Shown here: positions 37,039 to 59,760 of the stretch, piece after piece
Layout: each line of letters starts with the position of its first letter
How positions within the stretch are numbered: position 1 is the first letter of the stretch
NCBI GenBank assembly: GCA_037892935.1
Contig: JAYXKI010000008.1
Location: forward strand, 868,001 to 932,000
Length of the DNA stretch: 64,000 bases
Direction of reading: 5' to 3'
Source: Phlebopus portentosus
Lineage: Eukaryota; Basidiomycota; Agaricomycetes; Boletales; Boletinellaceae
Made by a program: the position numbers and the translations under genes
The notes under the pieces: generated by a model
Told to the model about the DNA's origin: nothing
Database searches by the model: none
The model's input: the letters and a program-made list of their open reading frames with translations, nothing else

Positions 37039-37813
37039 GAAGGAGATCAGAGATTTGTCAAATGACTTGTCTCTCAGGATGACAGAGGTGAGTTTTAGCA
37101 CTTTCTTTCAAGAACTTATAGTTGCTTATATTCTCTTAGGAGATGACAGCAAATCTGGCCATCGGAGGAAGGCTTGCTTTTGATATCGGCTTAGAGATGT
37201 TTAGCCAAATTGGCTCAATACTTGCAGAGATTGGTAGAAAGAATGGAGGTATTCTCAACGACAGTAGCAATGATGCGAGGCTTAGGGCCTTTGTGACTTG
37301 TTTTGACAATTATGGCAAACTCAAGCCATCTACTTTCCTTTTGCATTTGGCTTCCTTATTAATCGGACTCAGGGATCTTACAGTGGAGGAGGGGAAGGAA
37401 CCAGAAGTAATCCCTATAGTGATGGCACTTTTGAATGCCGTATCAATGTGAACCAGTCCTGTGAAGGACTCCCTCAAAACTATGGCAATGAGCCTATGGT
37501 CATAGCATGAAGACCAGGTACAGGCACTAGAGTGCTTCCTGCAGGCCTTCCCACCTGTAGAAGGGTCCGCACGAATTGCGGTCCTTTACTTTTTTATTAA
37601 AAAGAATCTGATTTGATAATTCGGTAATGATGTAGCGCATCCCTTGGAGATTGGGATGTCTTACTCTTCTATGAAATTTTTGGTGGAGCAGGTTGACATA
37701 AATGCAGAGGATAAGGAAGTTTTGCACCAAATCTCCCACAATATGGAGAAGATTTAGGATGAGTTCAAAGGTCTCAAGTTCGGGTATGGGTTGAAGGAGC
37801 CGAAGAAAGAGAA

Positions 37814-38179
37814 GGGGAAGGGGAAGGGGAAGGGGAAGGGGAAGGGGAAGGGGAAGGGGAAGGGGAAGGGGAAGGGGAAGGGGAAGGGGAAGGGGAAGGG
37901 GAAGGGGAAGGGGAAGGGGAAGGGGAAGGGGAAGGGGAAGGGGAAGGGGAAGGGGAAGGGGAAGGGGGGGAAGGGGAAGGGGAAGGGGAAGGGGAAGGGG
38001 AAGGGGAAGGGGAAGGGGAAGGGGAAGGGGAAGGGGAAGGGGAAGGGGAAGGGGAAGGGGAAGGGGAAGGGGAAGGGGAAGGGGAAGGGGAAGGGGAAGG
38101 GGAAGGGGAAGGGGAAGGGGAAGGGGAAGGGGAAGGGGAAGGGGAAGGGGAAGGGGAAGGGGAAGGGGAAGGGGAAGGG
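37814..38179. repeat. (GGGGAA)n tract, about 61 units
   Basis: About 366 bp of GGGGAA repeats with a single irregular unit (a run of six G at about 37964). One strand is all purine. The tract is in frame as Lys-Gly on + and Pro-Phe on -, giving long but meaningless frames. It is a candidate for triplex (H-DNA) or G-quadruplex structure and for length polymorphism. Confidence 0.95.
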
Positions 38180-38907
38180 CGATGTCATTTTCAGCCTACT
38201 TGGTGACTCGAAAAAATGCTCACCTATAATCTCGACATGGACTAGTGATACATTTGTGTCAAAGAGGCTAGTCCGCCGAGTACCTCAACCAAGCGAGCTT
38301 GAAGTGCCACCGATTGAATGGAGCGTAGGAGGGAGTGACAAAGTGTAGTAGAGGGGAAAGATAAAGAGAAGGCGAGGCCGAGTACAGAGGTGTCAAGTGT
38401 AGAGGAAGAGAGGGAAGTAAAGAAGAGGAGATGATTGTGTACTTTACTTTAGTCCAAGCTCTGTGTTCTCTGCTCCAAAAAGATTCAAAGAAAGCATGCA
38501 GTACTAGGCCACACTATATAATAGAGACTAGGTCAGGCAACCTAGATGTTAGTCAGCCAAGTCTTTGTAAGATTTGGCTCATCTCCATATATAAGGGAGC
38601 CAGGGATGAATGATCTCTAGTACCCACTTTGCCTCTTCCCACCATTATTGGTAACTCCTCCCCTTTCCTACACAGATCTCCCCCTACTTAAACTCTGTCT
38701 GAGCAGTGTCATGCACTCCTCTCAAGCTACCATTAGGGGCTGTGAGTATCAGCTGTTATTATTTAAAGCACTGAAAATAACTAAACACCTCCACCTAGCC
38801 CTGAGTTCCAGAAGAATTCCCCAGCTGGAGAAAGTCAGCCTAGGTACGTTTCCTTGGTTGAATGCTGTAGTATGCACTCTCTCGAACTCTTTTAATCAGC
38901 ATCTAAG

Positions 38908-42737: not shown

Positions 42738-43651
42738 TAACCTGGACTTGATTACGGAGAATGCAAGTTCAATAGGATTGTAGTCTGGTGAGTAAGGAGG
42801 AAGAAATTCAAGTCTGACACCCCTAAGCAAAGGGGTCAGTACATGCTGCGACTTGCATTGCTAGTGAGATAGACCGAGATTTGATGAGCTCCCAAATCTC
42901 GGGAGCCTTGTGTATTGGGCAGTTATCCATTACGATAACTGATTGATTACCGGAGAAGGGATGCATTTTATCTAACAGGCTGGTAATGAATTTCATGAAC
43001 AATTTGGTATTGAATGCACCCTGTACGATAGTGCAGTTGATTGTCCCATTGAGGCTGATAGCTGGCAAGACAGAGAAGCTAACAGAGTGAATCAGAAGCT
43101 TGTGACATGCCACAAGAGGCAGAATCACCGTTTCCCTCTATTGAAAAACTGCTTGCGACATGCACGGTGACCCTTAAGGGCCCAAATAGTGTTGCGAAGA
43201 AAAGCCCACTGATCGCAAGCACTCTCATCAACAAATACCAGCTGTTTCACTGTGTACTGAGAGGTGATACGTGCAACATACTGCACACACAGAGTTTCAT
43301 TCCACTCGAGAGCCCTTTTCGATAACTAGACTATGACAATTTCAGTTCGCATGGAATGTGTAGGGAAGCAAAGCAACAGAGACAGCCACCTTCTTAAGTA
43401 TCAAACTGGCATACAGCAAGGACCTGCATATAGTCGCATCCGAAGCCTCCTTCTCCCATCTTTTCTGGAGCAGTAGCCTCAACTCGTCGATGTAATAGTC
43501 ATTGAGATTGCTTAGTGACCTGAAAAGGAACTACGTAGTGTGAACCAACAGCTATCAGGACAGGTTTCAACATGTGCATACCTTGGTGTGGATATAATCA
43601 AGCACTCAAGGCCTTCCACAAAAACCAAGTTCATGCACAGCAACAGTCCCG
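42738..43651 (-). mobile_element. Inverted arm 2, inner part, with transposase remnant
   Basis: Inverted counterpart of 33240-34158. It holds a decayed DDE domain with VACHKLLIHSVSF and VIVMDNCPIHK (about 42915-42945). It ends at AAGTCCAGG, after which sequence differs from arm 1. The arm is interrupted at 43651 by the LTR retrotransposon and resumes at 55189. Confidence 0.8.
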
Positions 43652-45056
43652 TTGAAACTCCTGTGCACTGTCTGATAGCTGAGGAGTGTCACAGTTCTTG
43701 GGGGCTGTTCGGTAAGATTAAAACGAGTGGAAAGAGAAGGGTGACTCTTGGGGGGGGAAAACTAGAGAAGCGCTGATGCGTCGATCTGGGTTCCGGAGCG
43801 GTTCCGGAAGGGATGGAGGAGAAATGGGATTGAAGGCTGCTGGATGTATGCGAGGGGGGGGGATTGGATTAAAGGAGATAGGCGAAGAAGCAAGGCGGGA
43901 GAAGTCGAAGCAAGGGGGATTGGCGGTGGCGGTGCGAAGGTAATCGATGTCCTCACAGGTAATCCCTCGATGGATTCGAACCCTGGAGGCGGAAGACGAT
44001 GGGACGAAGCTTAGAGAAGGACTTCCCCTAAGCGCTGACGATTTGAAGGTGATCCCTTCGAGGATCCGACACGATATAACAGGTTACGACAAGTTACGAC
44101 GAGTTTCGGTGGGTTACGAAGTGAAACAGAGCTATACGACGCGGAACGAAGCGATACGCAAGGGACTCAAGTGAGACCTTGCGTAGAGGCGTAGGGAGGA
44201 GAGATGAGGGTCTCTGACTTCAACACGGGTTGAACTGATCACACTGGGCTCGGGTACGACTGCAGAGCAGGAGACTCGAGGCGTATGAGACAGAACTATT
44301 GTGTATTTGTGGGAGATAGAGTCGAGGAGAGTACAGGAAGAGTCGAATTGGTCTCGACTGTAGCTGAAGTGGGTTCAAGCCCGAGCTAAACTGTTTTCTG
44401 CTAAAACTCTCCGGGCTAAAACTGGGCTCCTACTACAAGTTGCTCGCCTATTTATAACTTTGTCCGAACCTGAGCCATCGGAGCGTCAGGGAGCATAACG
44501 AAAGGAAATCGGAAGTGAAAATCATAAGGGAATGCACGGGAACAAGGTACGAGGTGAGCATATCTGGAAGGTGGCGAGATAATGACCATAGAGCATAATA
44601 CGACATGTGAGCGCACACGGAATAATGAGCATAAGAATCATAAGGAACAAAACAAAATATGAACGCATATGGGACTCAAAAGGGGAAAAGCCGGAGCGCG
44701 TCGCGTCGGGTCGAAACTTGGGAGGTGTTGGGGGCCGATTGCGGATCCTTCAATTTACCTCTCGTGCCTGGGTTTAGTAAGACGAGCTAGCTAAGTCAGC
44801 CTTTGTAAGTTTTCGACTGGGTGGCTCGAGCGTCCGAAACAGGCATGCCCCTCGGAATACCAAGGGGCGCAAGGTGCGTTCAAAGATTCGATGATTCACT
44901 GAATTCCTACGCAGCGGTCGAGTGCGAGAGACTACAGTAGTCCGTTCCACTTCGAATCGAATCGATCCGCACTGAGTTCCGCTGTTACGATGCTGATCAC
45001 CGCGGAACACGTGTCACGTGTGCGATCTCGGACCTAGCGTGTCGATGCTTCTTACA
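43652..45056 (-). repeat. 3' LTR of the Ty3-type element
   Basis: 1405 bp, ending (plus reading) TTCTTACA. Compared with the 5' LTR it contains an extra 62-bp stretch at about 44836-44900. On the minus strand it is preceded by a purine-rich AGAAACCAGGAGA (45057-45069), the likely polypurine tract. Confidence 0.92.
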
Positions 45057-45190
45057 TCTCCTGGTTTCTTGAAATCGTGACTGTCCGCAGTCACACTCCC
45101 AATAGGGTTAGACTCGGCGTCTCTAGATTCTTGACGCGTAAAACGCGGTTCGCGACGCGTTCCGTTCATCTATCCTCTCTTCTCTCCGTC

Positions 45191-46274
45191 ATGTCCCATC
45201 AACAGCAACAACAACAGCAACAACAGCAACAACAGCAACAGCAGCAACAACAGCCGCTGTTCGACGAGATTCCTGTCTCAGCGGAGGGCTTCGTGTTCAG
45301 CAACACGTGGCTTTACGGTGTCGGAAACCAGGTCCAGGTCATCGAGCGTTTGCACGAGGACGTGGATCAGAGACGGTTCGTGAGGATGACCGTTGCGCAG
45401 TCCGTTGAGAGGGCGGAGGAAATGCGTGAGATCCAGGTGCGCTTTCTTTTCTGTCTTCATCTATTCTCTTCGTTCCGTTCCGACTTCCTGAATTTCATAG
45501 ACCGCGAGAAAGAGACTCGAGGACCTTCGGCCCGAGTGGGTGCCCATCGATTTGATGTGGCCGCCGTATGCCGCGCGTTTCTGGGCGGAAAGCGTGGTTG
45601 TGCTTGCGGATCGTTGCGCAACCCTCAACATCAACTGCGACCAGCTCGATGCGCTCAAGGCTTCATACCTCGAGGACGAAAAGCGTTCGAAGCCGGACAC
45701 CGAAGTCTACATTCAGCAATGGCGTGCGGGTTTGACCGGTCTAGAAGGGGCGATCGGTCGTCACCGCGATCTGCTACGGCCACTGGTTGGCCATTTCGAC
45801 GAAAGGAAGGACGAGCTGGAGAATACGGTCATGAAGATCGATCTGGACCAGGTGAGTGCTCATTCTCGCTTCTTCTTCTAATCTTGCTAACTGTTGAACT
45901 TCTAGCTATGGCGGATGTTTTGGGTCGGTCGTCGTTCTCCCGGCACGGAGATTGACGACGTCTGGACCGAATTCGGGTGGCTCGCTTGGGCGGAGATCCG
46001 GGGAATCCTCCTCTCAGCGCCGCTGAAGAGTCACGTCCACGAGGCCCTGCGGTGCTGGACTGCGTATGAGGAGAAGTGCTGCCCGTGCTCGGTCAAAGCC
46101 GCAGACGCACTCGTTGCGCTGCGTTCCGACGCGCATCTCGGCGGATCGGGCCCCTTTTCGTCGGGTATATCCGAATTGACCGAGTCTGCCCTCAGGACGC
46201 TGCTGGGTCGTCAAGACTTGAGTCAGGTGGAGCGGGAGTCCGTCATCAGCGAGCTGGAAGATTGTGCGGACTGA
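45191..46274 (+). CDS. Antisense spliced gene inside the Ty3-type element, part A
   Basis: The gene runs opposite to gag-pol. It starts 135 bp inside the 3' LTR border at an ATG followed by a run of glutamines (CAA/CAG). Exons 45191-45436, 45501-45851 and 45906-46274 are joined by two canonical GT-AG introns (64 and 54 bp) with phase 0 throughout, giving 321 residues. The protein has no domain I know. After the Q run come VFSNTWLYGVGNQVQVIERL, a helical charged middle, LDALKASYLEDEKR, and a Trp-rich block (LWRMFWVGRR, EFGWLAWAEIR). A coding frame that spans two well-formed introns, with GC-rich codon use, argues for a real expressed gene. It ends at TGA 46272-46274, and the same frame stays open beyond it. 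Confidence 0.7.
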
Positions 46275-46301
46275 GTTTCGTACTTGAGCGAGCTGGAGAA
46301 G

Positions 46302-47111
46302 ATGGCAAGCGCGGTCAGGGTTCCGTCGCCGTCTTCGGATCGCGAGAGAGATGAGAGGCCCACGAAGCGGCCTCGGATTGTCGATTATTCGAGCGACGAG
46401 GAGTCGGTAGAGGGGAACTGCAACAACAGCAGCAGCAACATTCCTTCTGCTGCCAACGGTTTCTCTTCTGGGGGTCCGGCTGGAGATGACGACTTTGGGG
46501 CTTTTGACGAAGCGCCCCTCTTTCTTCCGGACGGTGCTGTCAGCGAGAGCAACAGCAGCAACAGCAATCCTCCAGCTGCGAGCGAGTCTCCGAGTGCAGA
46601 ACGAATGGAAGAGGATGAGGGAAGCCAAGGTGATGGCAGGGACGGTAGCAGCAGTAGCAGCAGCAGCAGCAATTCGTCTGCTGGTGGCTGGGTCGTGCAT
46701 GATGAGGGGTGTGAGAGGTGTGCGAGGGCAGGCCGGGTCTGTGAGGGTTTCCCTGGGCAGGCCTGTGATTACTGCCGCACGAAGGCCAGGCGGCGATGCG
46801 AGCTGGCTACGCACGGGAGGGCTGCGCGTCGCCTGCGGAACGAGCAGGTGGAACGCGAGACACGCGAAGCTCGTCAGCGCGCAACGGTGCAGGTGCTGAG
46901 GATGCCGGTTGCGCCTGTCCTTGAGGTGAGTGACATCGAGGAGTTGGTCGCCGGGACGGACGAGAGCGCCGTCCATTTCCGGATGGCGGCCTTGGAGAGG
47001 CGCGCGCGCGTGTTGTTCTGCGCTGCGGATCAACTGCGCAACCTAGCGGAGGAGATGCTGGCCGAGACCAGTGCGCTAGGAAGGGTGGTAAGGGGTGAGG
47101 AGGAGGAGTAA
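46302..47111 (+). CDS. Antisense ORF, part B, with Zn2Cys6-like cysteine cluster
   Basis: 269 codons, in the same frame as part A and separated from it only by the TGA at 46272-46274 and nine codons. It is either a separate gene or the C-terminal half of one protein. A basic stretch (KRPRIVDYSSDEE) could be a nuclear signal. A long Ser/Asn/Gly/Glu-rich disordered region follows. Six cysteines at residues 137-166 have spacing C-x2-C-x6-C-x7-C-x2-C-x7-C, within the range of GAL4-type Zn2Cys6 clusters. The last 90 residues are basic then helical (RRLRNEQVERETREARQR), a possible dimerisation coiled coil. The known family binds DNA, but the usual N-terminal position and the Lys/Arg pattern after the second cysteine are not fully met. 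Confidence 0.62.
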   Translation: MASAVRVPSPSSDRERDERPTKRPRIVDYSSDEESVEGNCNNSSSNIPSAANGFSSGGPAGDDDFGAFDEAPLFLPDGAVSESNSSNSNPPAASESPSAERMEEDEGSQGDGRDGSSSSSSSSNSSAGGWVVHDEGCERCARAGRVCEGFPGQACDYCRTKARRRCELATHGRAARRLRNEQVERETREARQRATVQVLRMPVAPVLEVSDIEELVAGTDESAVHFRMAALERRARVLFCAADQLRNLAEEMLAETSALGRVVRGEEEE

Positions 47112-47676
47112 GGAGTAAGAGGAGTGAGGGGAGGGGGTAGAGTGCGTCAAAACGACGCTTTTTCGTCTAGTGTCCCCTCATGGGACGAATAAAAAAAACA
47201 AAGAAAAAGAAGAAAAAGAAAAAAAATAATTTGAACTTTTGTATATATATGGTTTTTATGCGTTTTTGAATGTTATGAATTTTTGTTTGCGGTTTTGACG
47301 TTTGGGGTGAAGGTAAATAATAATGGAAGAATGAGGATTGAGATATGAGAAAATGAGAGATTAGAGAAAATAAGCGGTGATTATTGAGTCGAAAGGACTG
47401 AGAGAAAAATAAGCTAGTTGCGCTGTTTTGCGCAGCGCTACGCCGGGTTGCGATTCGCAACTGAGCGCATGAAGGTGAACACGCGGTTGAACGCGTATCT
47501 CGGTTTGCGCGAACACTTTTCCGAGGGTCTAAATGCGGTTGAGCGCGAATAATTCGAAGGAAGGAAAAATCGAGAGGAAAATCGGGAGAGGAATGAAATG
47601 AAACAAATAATCGAAAGGATCTAATAGAAGAAGAATGTCAGTGGTTTGCATGGAGGGTATCAGAACTGAATGGTGT
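47112..47676. other. Convergent 3' region between antisense gene and pol
   Basis: AT-rich non-coding segment with purine runs (about 47190-47230). It is probably the shared termination region of part B (+) and pol (-). Nothing else is seen. Confidence 0.5.
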
Positions 47677-53844: not shown

Positions 53845-55188
53845 TGAAACTCCTGTGCACTGTCTGATAGCTGAGGAGTGTCACAGTTCTTGGGGGCTGT
53901 TCGGTAAGATTAAAACGAGTGGAAAGAGAAGGGTGACTCTTGGGGGGGGAAAACTAGAGAAGCGCTGATGCGTCGATCTGGGTTCCAGAGCGGTTCCGGA
54001 AGGGATGGAGGAGAAATGGGATTGAAGGCTGCTGGATGTATGCGAGGGGGGGGGATTGGATTAAAGGAGATAGGCGAAGAAGCAAGGCGGGAGAAGTCGA
54101 AGCAAGGGGGATTGGCGGTGGCGGTGCGAAGGTAATCGATGTCCTCACAGGTAATCCCTCGATGGATTCGAACCCTGGAGGCGGAAGACGATGGGACGAA
54201 GCTTAGAGAAGGACTTCCCCTAAGCGCTGACGATTCGAAGGTGATCCCTTCGAGGATCCGACACGATATAACAGGTTACGACAAGTTACGACGAGTTTCG
54301 GTGGGTTACGAAGCGAAACAGAGCTATACGACGCGGAACGAAGCGATACGCAAGGGACTCAAGTGAGACCTTGCGTAGAGGCGTAGGGAGGAGAGATGAG
54401 GGTCTCTGACTTCAACACGGGTTGAACTGATCACACTGGGCTCGGGTACGACTGCAGAGCAGGAGACTCGAGGCGTATGAGACAGAACTATCGTGTATTT
54501 GTGGGAGATAGAGTCAAGGAGAGTACAGGAAGAGTCGAATTGGTCTCGACTGTAGCTGAAGTGGGTTCAAGCCTGAGCTAAACTGTTTTCTGCTAAAACT
54601 CTCCGGGCTAAAACTGGGCTCCTACTACAAGTTGCTCGCCTATTTATAACTTTGTCCGAACCTGAGCCATCGGAGCGTCAGGGAGCATAACGAAAGGAAA
54701 TCGGAAGTGAAAATCATAAGGGAATGCACGGGAACAAGGTACGAGGTGAGCATATCTGGAAGGTGGCGAGATAATGACCATAGAGCATAATACGACATGT
54801 GAGCGCACACGGAATAATGAGCATAAGAATCATAAGGAACAAAACAAAATATGAACGCATATGGGACTCAAAAGGGGAAAAGCCGGAGCGCGTCGCGTCG
54901 CGTCGAAACTTGGGAGGTGTTGGGGGCCGATTGCGGATCCTTCAATTTACCTCTCGTGCCTGGGTTTAGTAAGACGAGCTAGCTAAGTCAGCCTTTGTAA
55001 GTTTTCGACTGGGTGGCTCGAGCGTCCGAAGGTTCTTCCTACGCAGCGGTCGAGTGCGAGAGGCTACAGTAGTCCGTTCCACTTCGAATCGAATCGATCC
55101 GCACTGAGTTCCGCTGTTACGATGCTGATCACCGCGGAACACGTGTCACGTGCGCGATCTCGGACCTAGCGTGTCGATGCTTCTTACA
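53845..55188 (-). repeat. 5' LTR of the Ty3-type element
   Basis: 1344 bp. Nearly identical to 43652-45056 except for about nine substitutions and the missing 62-bp segment near 55030. Most of the substitutions are C/T transitions, several at CpG. Confidence 0.92.
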
Positions 55189-56374
55189 CCGTTGCGCTTG
55201 AACTCTTGTATTATCCGGAAAACTGTTATCTTGGGTATGTCGGTCAAGGCTGCAATCTGAGAGGCGCTGAGTTTCTTATTTATAGTGATGATGCATTCCC
55301 ATAAATTGTTGGACAGCCATCTGCCGCGTCGCCAGGGTTGCATGAATGAATGCTCAACATAAGCTGTAGAGATGGTGACTGTGAAGATGGTGATAGCTCG
55401 AGATCAAGTGGTGACTCGACACGTGAGTTAACCCTTCATCCTCACATGCATCGCTGCTCCTATCTCTTTGCCATGGTGCCTCATCTCTCATGATGGTCCA
55501 TCCCCAGCAACTGGGGGTTCCCTCATGCCTGTGAGTGATGAGGGATTGGTGAGGACGAGGAGAGAACTGTGGACAAGTGATGAGAGCTGCTGTGCAGGGA
55601 GATACTGTATACAAAAGACTACTATCATGTGCATACACTCGTGTTTCTCTGAGAGATATTTCTGTGGCCCTGGCAGGCACGCTCAGTTTGGTTGTAGTAG
55701 GAGTGCATGATGGCTGAGCTGACCTTGTTCGCCCTTACCCAGATATGATTTTAGGTGACATTTTAGCAGAGGATAGTCACCGAGGTGGTTTCAAGTCTGA
55801 TTGGTAGATAGTACATGTAATGTAGTCACACCCAAGCCTAACTCAGCTCAGCTACTGTCTTGGCTGAAAGTGCCTATGCTGCTGTCTTTTTAGCAGAAAC
55901 AATCAGATTTTTTGGTGTTCGAATGCATGAGTTATGACAGATGCAATGAAGTAGGGGAGAGTTCTGTGAGCAGGAGTAACAACAAACTACCCAGTTTCAC
56001 TATCACAATTATATCAGGGAGCCTCGAGGAGTTGCATACAGGTGCCCACTGGGCTGGCCTGATTTATCAAACTTATTCAGATTTTTCCAGATGACGTTGG
56101 GCAAGCTATGATTTTTACACTGAACAGAGGGCATGACAAGGATTTAGCACTATGATGCTATCTTTTAAGTAGCGAAGTACATACTCAACAAAACCCAGAC
56201 ATTTTTATATATACTGGAGCGCATTTTCAAGTAGGTTTTTTACATAGTTATATCAGATTTTTATGTGTTGTATTGACTGAGATATTTGCTATTTTGTTTT
56301 TTTTTGCTCATCCAGGATGCACTATGCGTCAAAAATACACATGATTTTCCAAATTGCCAACAATTTTGCAATTA
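55189..56374 (-). mobile_element. Inverted arm 2, outer part
   Basis: Inverted counterpart of 32065-33240. It contains the transposase HTH start (about 55146-55343 minus frame, SASQIAALTDIPKITVFRII without the stop seen in arm 1) and the non-coding outer third. It ends at 56374 with GCAATTAGCTGTAAG, the unoccupied form of the TA site that holds a MITE in arm 1. Confidence 0.8.
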
Positions 56375-58476: not shown

Positions 58477-59760
58477 TTGGCATTGATCTACACCTCCAGA
58501 TATAAATTTGTTAGCACTCTCTCCTTCCTCACTACTTATTATCTTTTGAGCACATTATCTGTTTACTCTTATCTACATCTCATTCTCACTATCACATCTG
58601 AACCTACAACCTTTAAGATGCTATCTACTATTACTAAGCTTAATGATAGCAATTACTCTGTCTGGAAGCATAGTATATATGCTATACTTCAAGTCAAAAA
58701 GTTGTGGCATCTGATCTCTGGTCAGGAAGCTGTTAGGATTATGTAATCCTCAGCTTACTCAGACTATGAGTTATTCCCTGCTTAGTAGCAATATGGACCC
58801 TGAACTCATAGGCTGGTAATGCCAATCTAAAGTGATTAACCTGGCTAGATAGCTTAGTGGTGAAAGTATCTGATATATACTCAGGAGATCCTAGGTTCAA
58901 TCTCTAGTCTAGCTAGTTACCTGTTTTTAACTCTTAATAGAAGCTGAGCCTAATGCTTTAGCAGAGGTTATTCAGCTCTGAAAAGAGAAAGCTGAGCAAG
59001 CTGCAGACCTGATTTATTAGAGACTTGAGCATAGCATGTAGGTTATAATGTAGAACTACATAGTCAAGATGTAAACTGAGCTTTAGAAGATTAATAAGCA
59101 GGACAACCCAGCTGTGTGCTTTAATGCTTATGATAAGTTCTTTAATATTATCAAGAAGGAAGATGAGTCTCTCACCAATCTAGTGAGCAGGGTTGAGCTA
59201 GCATTGTATAAATTTAGAAGCACTTGTTCTAACACTCTCAAACTTAAGGAGTTTGAGAATAAGCTTGCATATATATATTTGATTCATGCTCTTCCTAAGG
59301 ACTATACCTTTTTTTGCTCTGCAGTGCTCCTTATAAAGGAATTTAAGTGAAATAACCTCAAGAAGATATTTGCTCAAGAGTAGCAGAACTATTAAGAGTG
59401 TATTTAGCTTCAGCTTCAGGCTATATTCATATCTACTAGTAGTGCTGTAAAGCCTATCTTCTCTCAAGGTGTCACTTACACCTTTTGTAGCATTTCTAAG
59501 CATATAGAGGAGAACTGTTATATAAAGCAGATAGCCTCCAAAGATATACATATTAGGGCTAAGAGAAACAGAAAAAAGGAGAGGAGAAAGGGCAGAAAGG
59601 GCTAGAAGGCCTATATTGCTCAACAAGATAAATCTGCTGAATCTGCCAAATTTACTAGTAATGCAAGTGCTCTTGACTATACCAATCTACATTTATCTCT
59701 TATTTCAGATGCAGGAACTGACTGGATTGCTGACACAGGTGCTACTTGCCACATGACTCT
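58477..59760 (+). pseudogene. copia-type gag and protease start, decayed
   Basis: Frames interrupted by stops. LNDSNYSVWKHSIYAILQVK (about 58650) is the copia gag N-terminal motif. ALYKFRSTCSNTLKLKEFE lies at about 59200-59260. A cysteine-containing segment stands where the zinc knuckle is expected (about 59480-59525). WIADTGATCHMT at about 59730-59760 is the protease active site. The end of the protein is lost. Confidence 0.75.

Follow-up and report, generated by a model that had tools for sequence, protein, structure and literature searches.

RESULTS

An antisense gene inside a Ty3-type element

The window analysed in this study, a stretch of 64,000 nucleotides on contig C8 of the Phlebopus portentosus genome (38.4 Mb, 23 contigs), carries on its minus strand a Ty3-type LTR retrotransposon and, on its plus strand, between pol and the 3' LTR of this element, a gene that is convergent (tail to tail) with pol. 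The features at the locus are the following.

43653–45056, minus strand: 3' LTR (1331 of 1340 aligned columns identical to the right-hand LTR)
45077–45094, no strand assigned: 18-bp palindrome in the gap that separates the 3' LTR from the antisense gene, next to the LTR
45191–45436, plus strand: exon 1 of the antisense gene, 82 codons, ATG start, polyglutamine
45437–45500, plus strand: intron 1, 64 nt, GT-AG, phase 0
45501–45851, plus strand: exon 2, 117 codons
45852–45905, plus strand: intron 2, 54 nt, GT-AG, phase 0
45906–47111, plus strand: exon 3, 402 codons including the final stop, carrying the six-cysteine C-terminal region
47188–47193, plus strand: AATAAA word, read in the sequence, beginning 77 nt past the stop codon
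47677–49932, minus strand: pol, RNase H and integrase (H2C2), Pfam PF17921, PF17919 and PF17917
49769–51064, minus strand: pol, reverse transcriptase (RT), Pfam PF00078
51240–53909, minus strand: gag and protease frame (stop to stop), PF13352 and PF13650 above cut-offs
53845–55188, minus strand: 5' LTR, from the LTR–LTR alignment

The element was assigned to the Ty3 type on the grounds that an LTR pair, a target duplication and the order protease, RT, RNase H, integrase are all present. Aligned over 1340 columns, the LTR pair shows 9 mismatches (99.3% identity in the aligned parts) and, in addition, an indel of about 60 bp, located near 44839–44903 of the left LTR, and CCGT flanks both ends of the element (43649–43652 and 55189–55192, by eye). 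RT of the window copy lies in a different frame from RNase H and integrase, and several other copies have a single open frame of 1212–1213 aa. Zinc-knuckle matches in the gag-protease frame score below the Pfam cut-offs. Pfam searches at E-values up to 1 found no chromodomain at the integrase C-terminus, with SH3_Tf2-1 appearing as a sub-threshold match only, and we therefore do not place the element in the chromovirus branch. A check by eye for a primer-binding site showed, on the minus strand, a stretch that starts with TGG and lies 2 nt inside the LTR, for which ARAGORN, run on the window only, gave no matching tRNA. The same program located a tRNA-Ile gene (TAT anticodon) at 58842–58916, approximately 3.7 kb from the element. 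Elsewhere in the window, positions 37709–38240 hold a long direct-repeat array with a spacing of mostly 12 bp, and several of its frames give two-residue protein repeats.

The ATG of the antisense gene at 45191 is 135 bp from the LTR edge and both of its introns are GT-AG introns in phase 0, in agreement with the initial annotation, which had described an intron-bearing gene antisense to the element between pol and the 3' LTR. The two introns and their phase are as that annotation described them. It had missed that the frame is not unbroken to 47111 in the window copy, as exon 3 contains an in-frame stop at 46272–46274 (codon 322). Of the 19 full-length copies, 17 lack this stop. According to a motif scan, intron 2 holds CTAAC and CTAAT words resembling branch sites, and a pyrimidine-rich tract immediately 5' of the ATG, with E-box words farther upstream, is present both in this family and in the sister family described below; the scan gave no TATA-like motif upstream of the antisense gene in either family. 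The AATAAA word past the stop codon is a possible poly(A) signal of the gene. The 18-bp palindrome occurs in 16 of these 19 copies and, in a changed form in which the change in the stem is paired (compensatory), at the sister loci L067 and L068. It was not found in L069, a locus without the gene start; the comparison within the sister family covers L067–L069, the sequences used for L071–L075 ending short of this point. The palindrome may serve as a site for protein binding or form a hairpin in the RNA close to the polypurine tract.

Both introns are retained in all full-length copies of the window family

A whole-genome search gave 19 full-length copies of the antisense region (L001–L019). Both GT-AG splice-site pairs are retained in every one of them and the intron lengths are constant, with intron 1 at 64 nt in 19/19 and intron 2 at 54 nt in 19/19. 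The whole spliced frame, of 600 to 608 codons including the final stop, is kept in 13 copies and is broken by stops or frame shifts in the other six; read without splicing, all 19 copies reach a stop at or before codon 255. These counts refer to L001–L019 and leave aside the partial or older loci L020–L023 and L030–L032. Close to the full-length copy at L017 (C14:359571-364482), the start of the antisense gene occurs a second time, in partial and inverted form. Changes from C to T or from G to A at CpG sites account for 156 of the 218 substitutions among the 19 copies (exons, 45191–47111), which suggests that the elements are subject to CpG methylation and deamination.

At nine shorter loci of the family (L024–L029, L033–L035) most of the antisense gene is gone between CAACAG-type repeats, which were recognised by eye, and in the six of these loci that were translated from the gene start (6/6) the frame closes within 37 codons; L029, L034 and L035, in which the gene start was not located, are outside this set. 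The gene loss at these repeats may reflect either a recurrent deletion or an inherited one, and the copies may have moved after the loss or have lost the gene in place. The existence of nine loci without most of the gene suggests that it is dispensable in cis, as expected of a gene with a trans-acting product. One of the gene-deleted loci adjoins a pol that is 96% identical.

A related antisense gene in a sister Ty3 family

A protein search of the genome with the antisense product revealed distant homologues with 31–33% identity beside the pol of a sister Ty3 family, the integrase region of which is 71–75% identical at the amino acid level to that of the window family. Among the 60 pol hits that were scored from 831 candidates, so that all counts of pol hits are lower bounds, the antisense cysteine domain is situated downstream of pol, and on the strand opposite to it, at 37/37 sister-family hits and at 20/23 window-family hits (57/60 together). 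The three window-family exceptions comprise one hit with the domain on the same strand and two with none by the query used. The distance from pol to the domain is 524–547 bp in the sister family and 589–1123 bp in the window family.

In the sister loci L067 and L068 the gene has first and second exons of 261 and 375 nt and introns of 52–53 and 47 nt, both in phase 0, and its product has 736 residues in L067 and 723 in L068. Judged from match coordinates among the matches listed, and without two partial exon-2 matches, all 64 sister loci tested have intron 1, with a length of 51–53 nt in 63 of them and of 105 nt in one. For intron 2, which was checked in the seven copies examined at the sequence level, and for both introns together, retention was established by sequence in 7/7 full-length copies (L067, L068, L071–L075), which are open over 723–747 residues; since these copies were chosen beforehand for a long open exon-3 frame, their openness and their coding lengths in multiples of three partly reflect that choice and are not independent evidence. 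L069, of which the C-terminal part alone was aligned, was left out of the sister counts. A hand count of the 67 sister matches gave 27 that contain no stop and whose open frame reaches 478 codons or more. A genome-wide scan for the spliced junctions, one per family, allowing up to three mismatches and run without a positive control, gave no match.

These copy comparisons bear on two points raised in the initial annotation. Its proposal that the introns of the antisense gene survive retrotransposition is upheld by the 19/19 window-family copies, the 64/64 sister loci for intron 1 and the 7/7 sister copies for both introns, and frame and introns are conserved in related copies. The concern that the segment might be a gene captured in one copy only is refuted, as the gene is present in many copies and in two families. 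More generally, it could be argued that a host gene was captured by chance in the window copy, or that the open frame is itself due to chance, which would fit with the broken state of the window copy and with a possible host gene on contig C3 that has the same cysteine spacing (see below). The occurrence of the domain at the same place and in the same orientation at 57/60 pol hits, together with the selection on the frame in two families described in the next section, makes this very improbable; an ancient capture that took place before the split of the two families is possible.

Inherited variants in the antisense frame are short of amino acid replacements

The action of selection was examined separately in private variants, which are expected to be mostly neutral decay after insertion, and in shared variants, which are expected to reflect what source elements have transmitted, and the counts of replacement and silent changes were compared with a CpG-aware neutral expectation. 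In the antisense gene of the window family the shared variants comprise 30 replacement and 32 silent changes against 38.9 and 22.9 expected (omega 0.55, p = 0.014; this and all later P-values are given without correction, and shared variants do not count as independent), and private variants give an omega of about 0.98. As a control, a pol fragment at the same loci (18 copies, without L014) has 11 replacement and 17 silent shared changes against 17.6 and 10.2 expected (omega 0.375, p = 0.008) and an omega of 0.88 for private variants. For the sister gene (7 copies) the corresponding figures are 7 and 23 against 19.6 and 9.6 (omega 0.15, p < 0.0001), with an omega of 0.76 (p = 0.12) for private variants, and its C-terminal region has an omega of 0.17 over all variants. 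As judged from these variant counts, the antisense reading frame is under purifying selection in inherited variants in both families. Of the five other registers, a single one, on the reverse strand, gives a low omega as well, in both families, and this register carries 12 and 22 stops.

Some parts of the data speak against this. The cysteine region of the window family shows no constraint among copies (8 replacement and 3 silent shared changes), and the number of nonsense variants in the window family is at the neutral level, with 5 observed and 4.5 expected, so that in this family an intact frame is by itself no evidence for selection.

Two other explanations can be weighed against these numbers. 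The first is that the real gene is a frame of 342 aa on the minus strand (46014–47042), in the sense orientation with respect to pol, and that the antisense frame is its shadow. The minus-strand frame is long and lies opposite exon 3, and over exactly this stretch the antisense frame likewise falls short of significance (19 replacement and 13 silent shared changes against 20.8 and 11.7 expected). However, the sense frame spans only a part of exon 3, its own ratio for shared variants is 0.68 (p = 0.19) whereas that of the whole antisense gene is significant, and it is in the antisense frame that homology between the two families has been shown; we regard this explanation as hardly credible. The second is that the antisense RNA itself is functional and that convergent transcription produces double-stranded and small RNAs that restrain the element, the reading frame being incidental. 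The convergent arrangement with pol would suit such a role, and the same idea has been put forward for plant antisense open reading frames (ORFs) in PMC7264820. An RNA acting in this way does not account for the shortage of amino acid replacements among inherited variants in both families, nor for the conservation of the C-terminal amino acid sequence between them, and it therefore seems to us a distinctly improbable basis for the gene.

The protein and its homologues

The products of the two families have in common a C-terminal module of approximately 125–150 aa with 30–34% identity (blastp E-values of 5e-11 to 4e-7). It contains six cysteines with the spacing CX2CX6CX7CX2CX6-7C followed by a basic stretch, and all six are invariant in the aligned sequences (sets of 4 and 5). 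We take this spacing to be that of the fungal Zn2Cys6 (GAL4-type) clusters, and the order of cysteines followed by basic residues is also that of GAL4-type proteins; the antisense protein differs from these in that it has no match to Pfam Zn_clus (PF00172) and in that its cluster is near the C-terminus. No match to a bZIP domain was found in Pfam, and searches of Pfam, NCBIfam and solved structures gave no credible domain in the antisense protein. Hits of P0003 and P0005, two of the database proteins introduced below, to TFIIA were discarded, being below the cut-off and falling in low-complexity stretches. The antisense protein has low-complexity stretches that are polyglutamine or acidic. For a third database protein, P0004, AlphaFold2 gave a low-confidence model (mean pLDDT 43).

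No homology was detected between the N-terminal halves of the two families (hhalign probability 0.4%). A common C-terminus combined with N-terminal halves in which no homology is seen suggests that one module is shared and that the remainder is fast-evolving or has been replaced. For the same reason the introns of the two families are not demonstrably the same ancestral introns, and the idea of provably homologous intron positions was dropped.

In a database search in which the best word-sharing candidates were scored, the antisense product had one match, P0001, annotated as a hypothetical protein in Sanghuangporus sanghuang and 93% identical. Taken by itself, this identity would point to a Sanghuangporus or a near relative as the most likely host. 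The gene models of P0001, which belongs to the window family, and of P0003 (S. sanghuang) and P0004 (Sanghuangporus weigelae), which belong to the sister family, join the same residues at both introns, and that of P0005 (Sanghuangporus baumii) joins nearly the same residues at the two introns, an agreement of gene model with gene model. Inside exon 1, the models of P0001 and P0003 depart from the one presented here. Database protein searches, two of which scored only candidates sharing most words, gave homologues from Sanghuangporus only. In P. portentosus itself, the six-cysteine spacing recurs in what may be a host gene, at L070 999–1733 (C3:2959521-2959769), with an E-value of 0.0015 and a sub-threshold Zn_clus match, and this gene is a candidate source of the cysteine module.

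Our best guess, drawn from the low-complexity stretches and the cysteine spacing, is that the antisense product would be a nuclear DNA-binding regulator. It could also be the product of a protein-coding accessory gene with a role other than in transcription control, such as helping the element to enter the nucleus or directing where it integrates. The evidence for a selected protein applies equally to such a role, a basic stretch after the cysteine cluster would suit any nucleic-acid-binding function, and loci without the gene exist as they would for any trans-acting factor. No domain or structure match favours either role, and taken together we consider a non-transcriptional function to be rather unlikely.

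DISCUSSION

In this study, we revisited a gene that lies between pol and the 3' LTR of a fungal Ty3-type element, in the opposite orientation to the element. Our analysis confirms that the gene is real and, as far as DNA sequence goes, upholds the main inference that the initial annotation drew from it. It is in our view likely that this is a genuine accessory gene, antisense to gag-pol and with two small introns, which would be expressed as a transcript from a promoter of its own and would give rise to a trans-acting nuclear protein.

The persistence of the introns can be explained by the orientation of the gene. In the genomic RNA of the element the antisense introns are present solely in reverse-complement form, beginning with CT and ending with AC, so that they offer no canonical splice sites, and the introns would persist in the copies because what the genomic RNA carries is not recognisable for splicing. 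Intron retention through antisense orientation is, from the comparison of copies, well supported. In an integrated copy, the antisense message would be made from a plus-strand promoter within the 3' LTR or next to it, and this message, once spliced, would be translated into a nuclear protein with polyglutamine or acidic low-complexity stretches and a Zn2Cys6-like cysteine cluster. The protein might then act in trans on DNA of the element or of the host, in the manner of HBZ of human T-cell leukaemia virus (HTLV).

Plant elements and the Boty element of Botrytis are already known to carry antisense ORFs in the interval from pol to the 3' LTR (PMC7264820, PMC11963269, PMC8365987). In position and orientation the present gene resembles gene23 of Grande, a plant Ty3/gypsy element, and its counterparts in RIRE2 and Retand (TRP28 in the latter), and like the plant antisense ORFs it is present in most copies and has homologues across families (PMC7264820, PMC11963269). 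The plant proteins are there characterised as nuclear or predicted to bind DNA, and that of Grande as having its own promoter (PMC7264820, PMC11963269). The differences are that the protein domains are not the same, that the hosts are plants and that the word 'intron' does not occur in the main text of PMC7264820 and PMC11963269. Boty of Botrytis cinerea, with its brtn gene, is likewise a fungal Ty3-type element with an extra antisense gene (PMC7264820, PMC8365987); however, its host is an ascomycete, a chromodomain has been reported for it (PMC4227169), and brtn was compared with the present gene by description only.

A second parallel is provided by HTLV-1 HBZ and HTLV-2 APH-2, which are also antisense and which PMC3185765 describes as spliced, starting at the 3' LTR and encoding nuclear regulators. 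Unlike the present gene, HBZ encodes a bZIP protein and its major form starts inside the LTR, and we claim no sequence relationship. A third is found in retroviral vectors with cassettes in reverse orientation, in which antisense introns are maintained and sense introns are spliced out, according to PMC13148933, although these cassettes, in contrast to the gene described here, are engineered. In the part of the open-access literature covered by our search, most subscription journals being outside its scope, we came across no report of an intron-bearing antisense gene in an LTR retrotransposon. Two further papers concern antisense RNAs derived from transposons in a mildew (PMC10648671) and an antisense mRNA from a mussel element (PMC10974842). 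The kind of gene is thus already known, and what is added here is an intron-bearing version in basidiomycete Ty3 families, with intron retention in multiple copies and with measured constraint.

More tentatively, we suggest that in this fungal Ty3 lineage the antisense orientation might have become a lasting solution for carrying an intron-bearing accessory gene, that the gene could be an independently evolved, HBZ-like spliced regulator and that its introns may limit the protein to integrated copies; this extended proposal is possible, and we hold it with considerably more reserve than the accessory gene itself. Because the full protein is encoded by neither the genomic RNA nor the unspliced antisense RNA, the introns may ensure that it is produced only from an integrated copy, where it would arise through nuclear antisense transcription and splicing.

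The homology reported here suggests that some of the 'hypothetical proteins' of Sanghuangporus (P0001–P0005) may be retrotransposon accessory proteins. The copies of the two families provide natural, multi-copy evidence for a principle of vector design, namely that antisense introns survive an RNA intermediate. They also offer a system for asking why an element keeps introns at all, and with two families that each have many near-identical copies, this question is testable.
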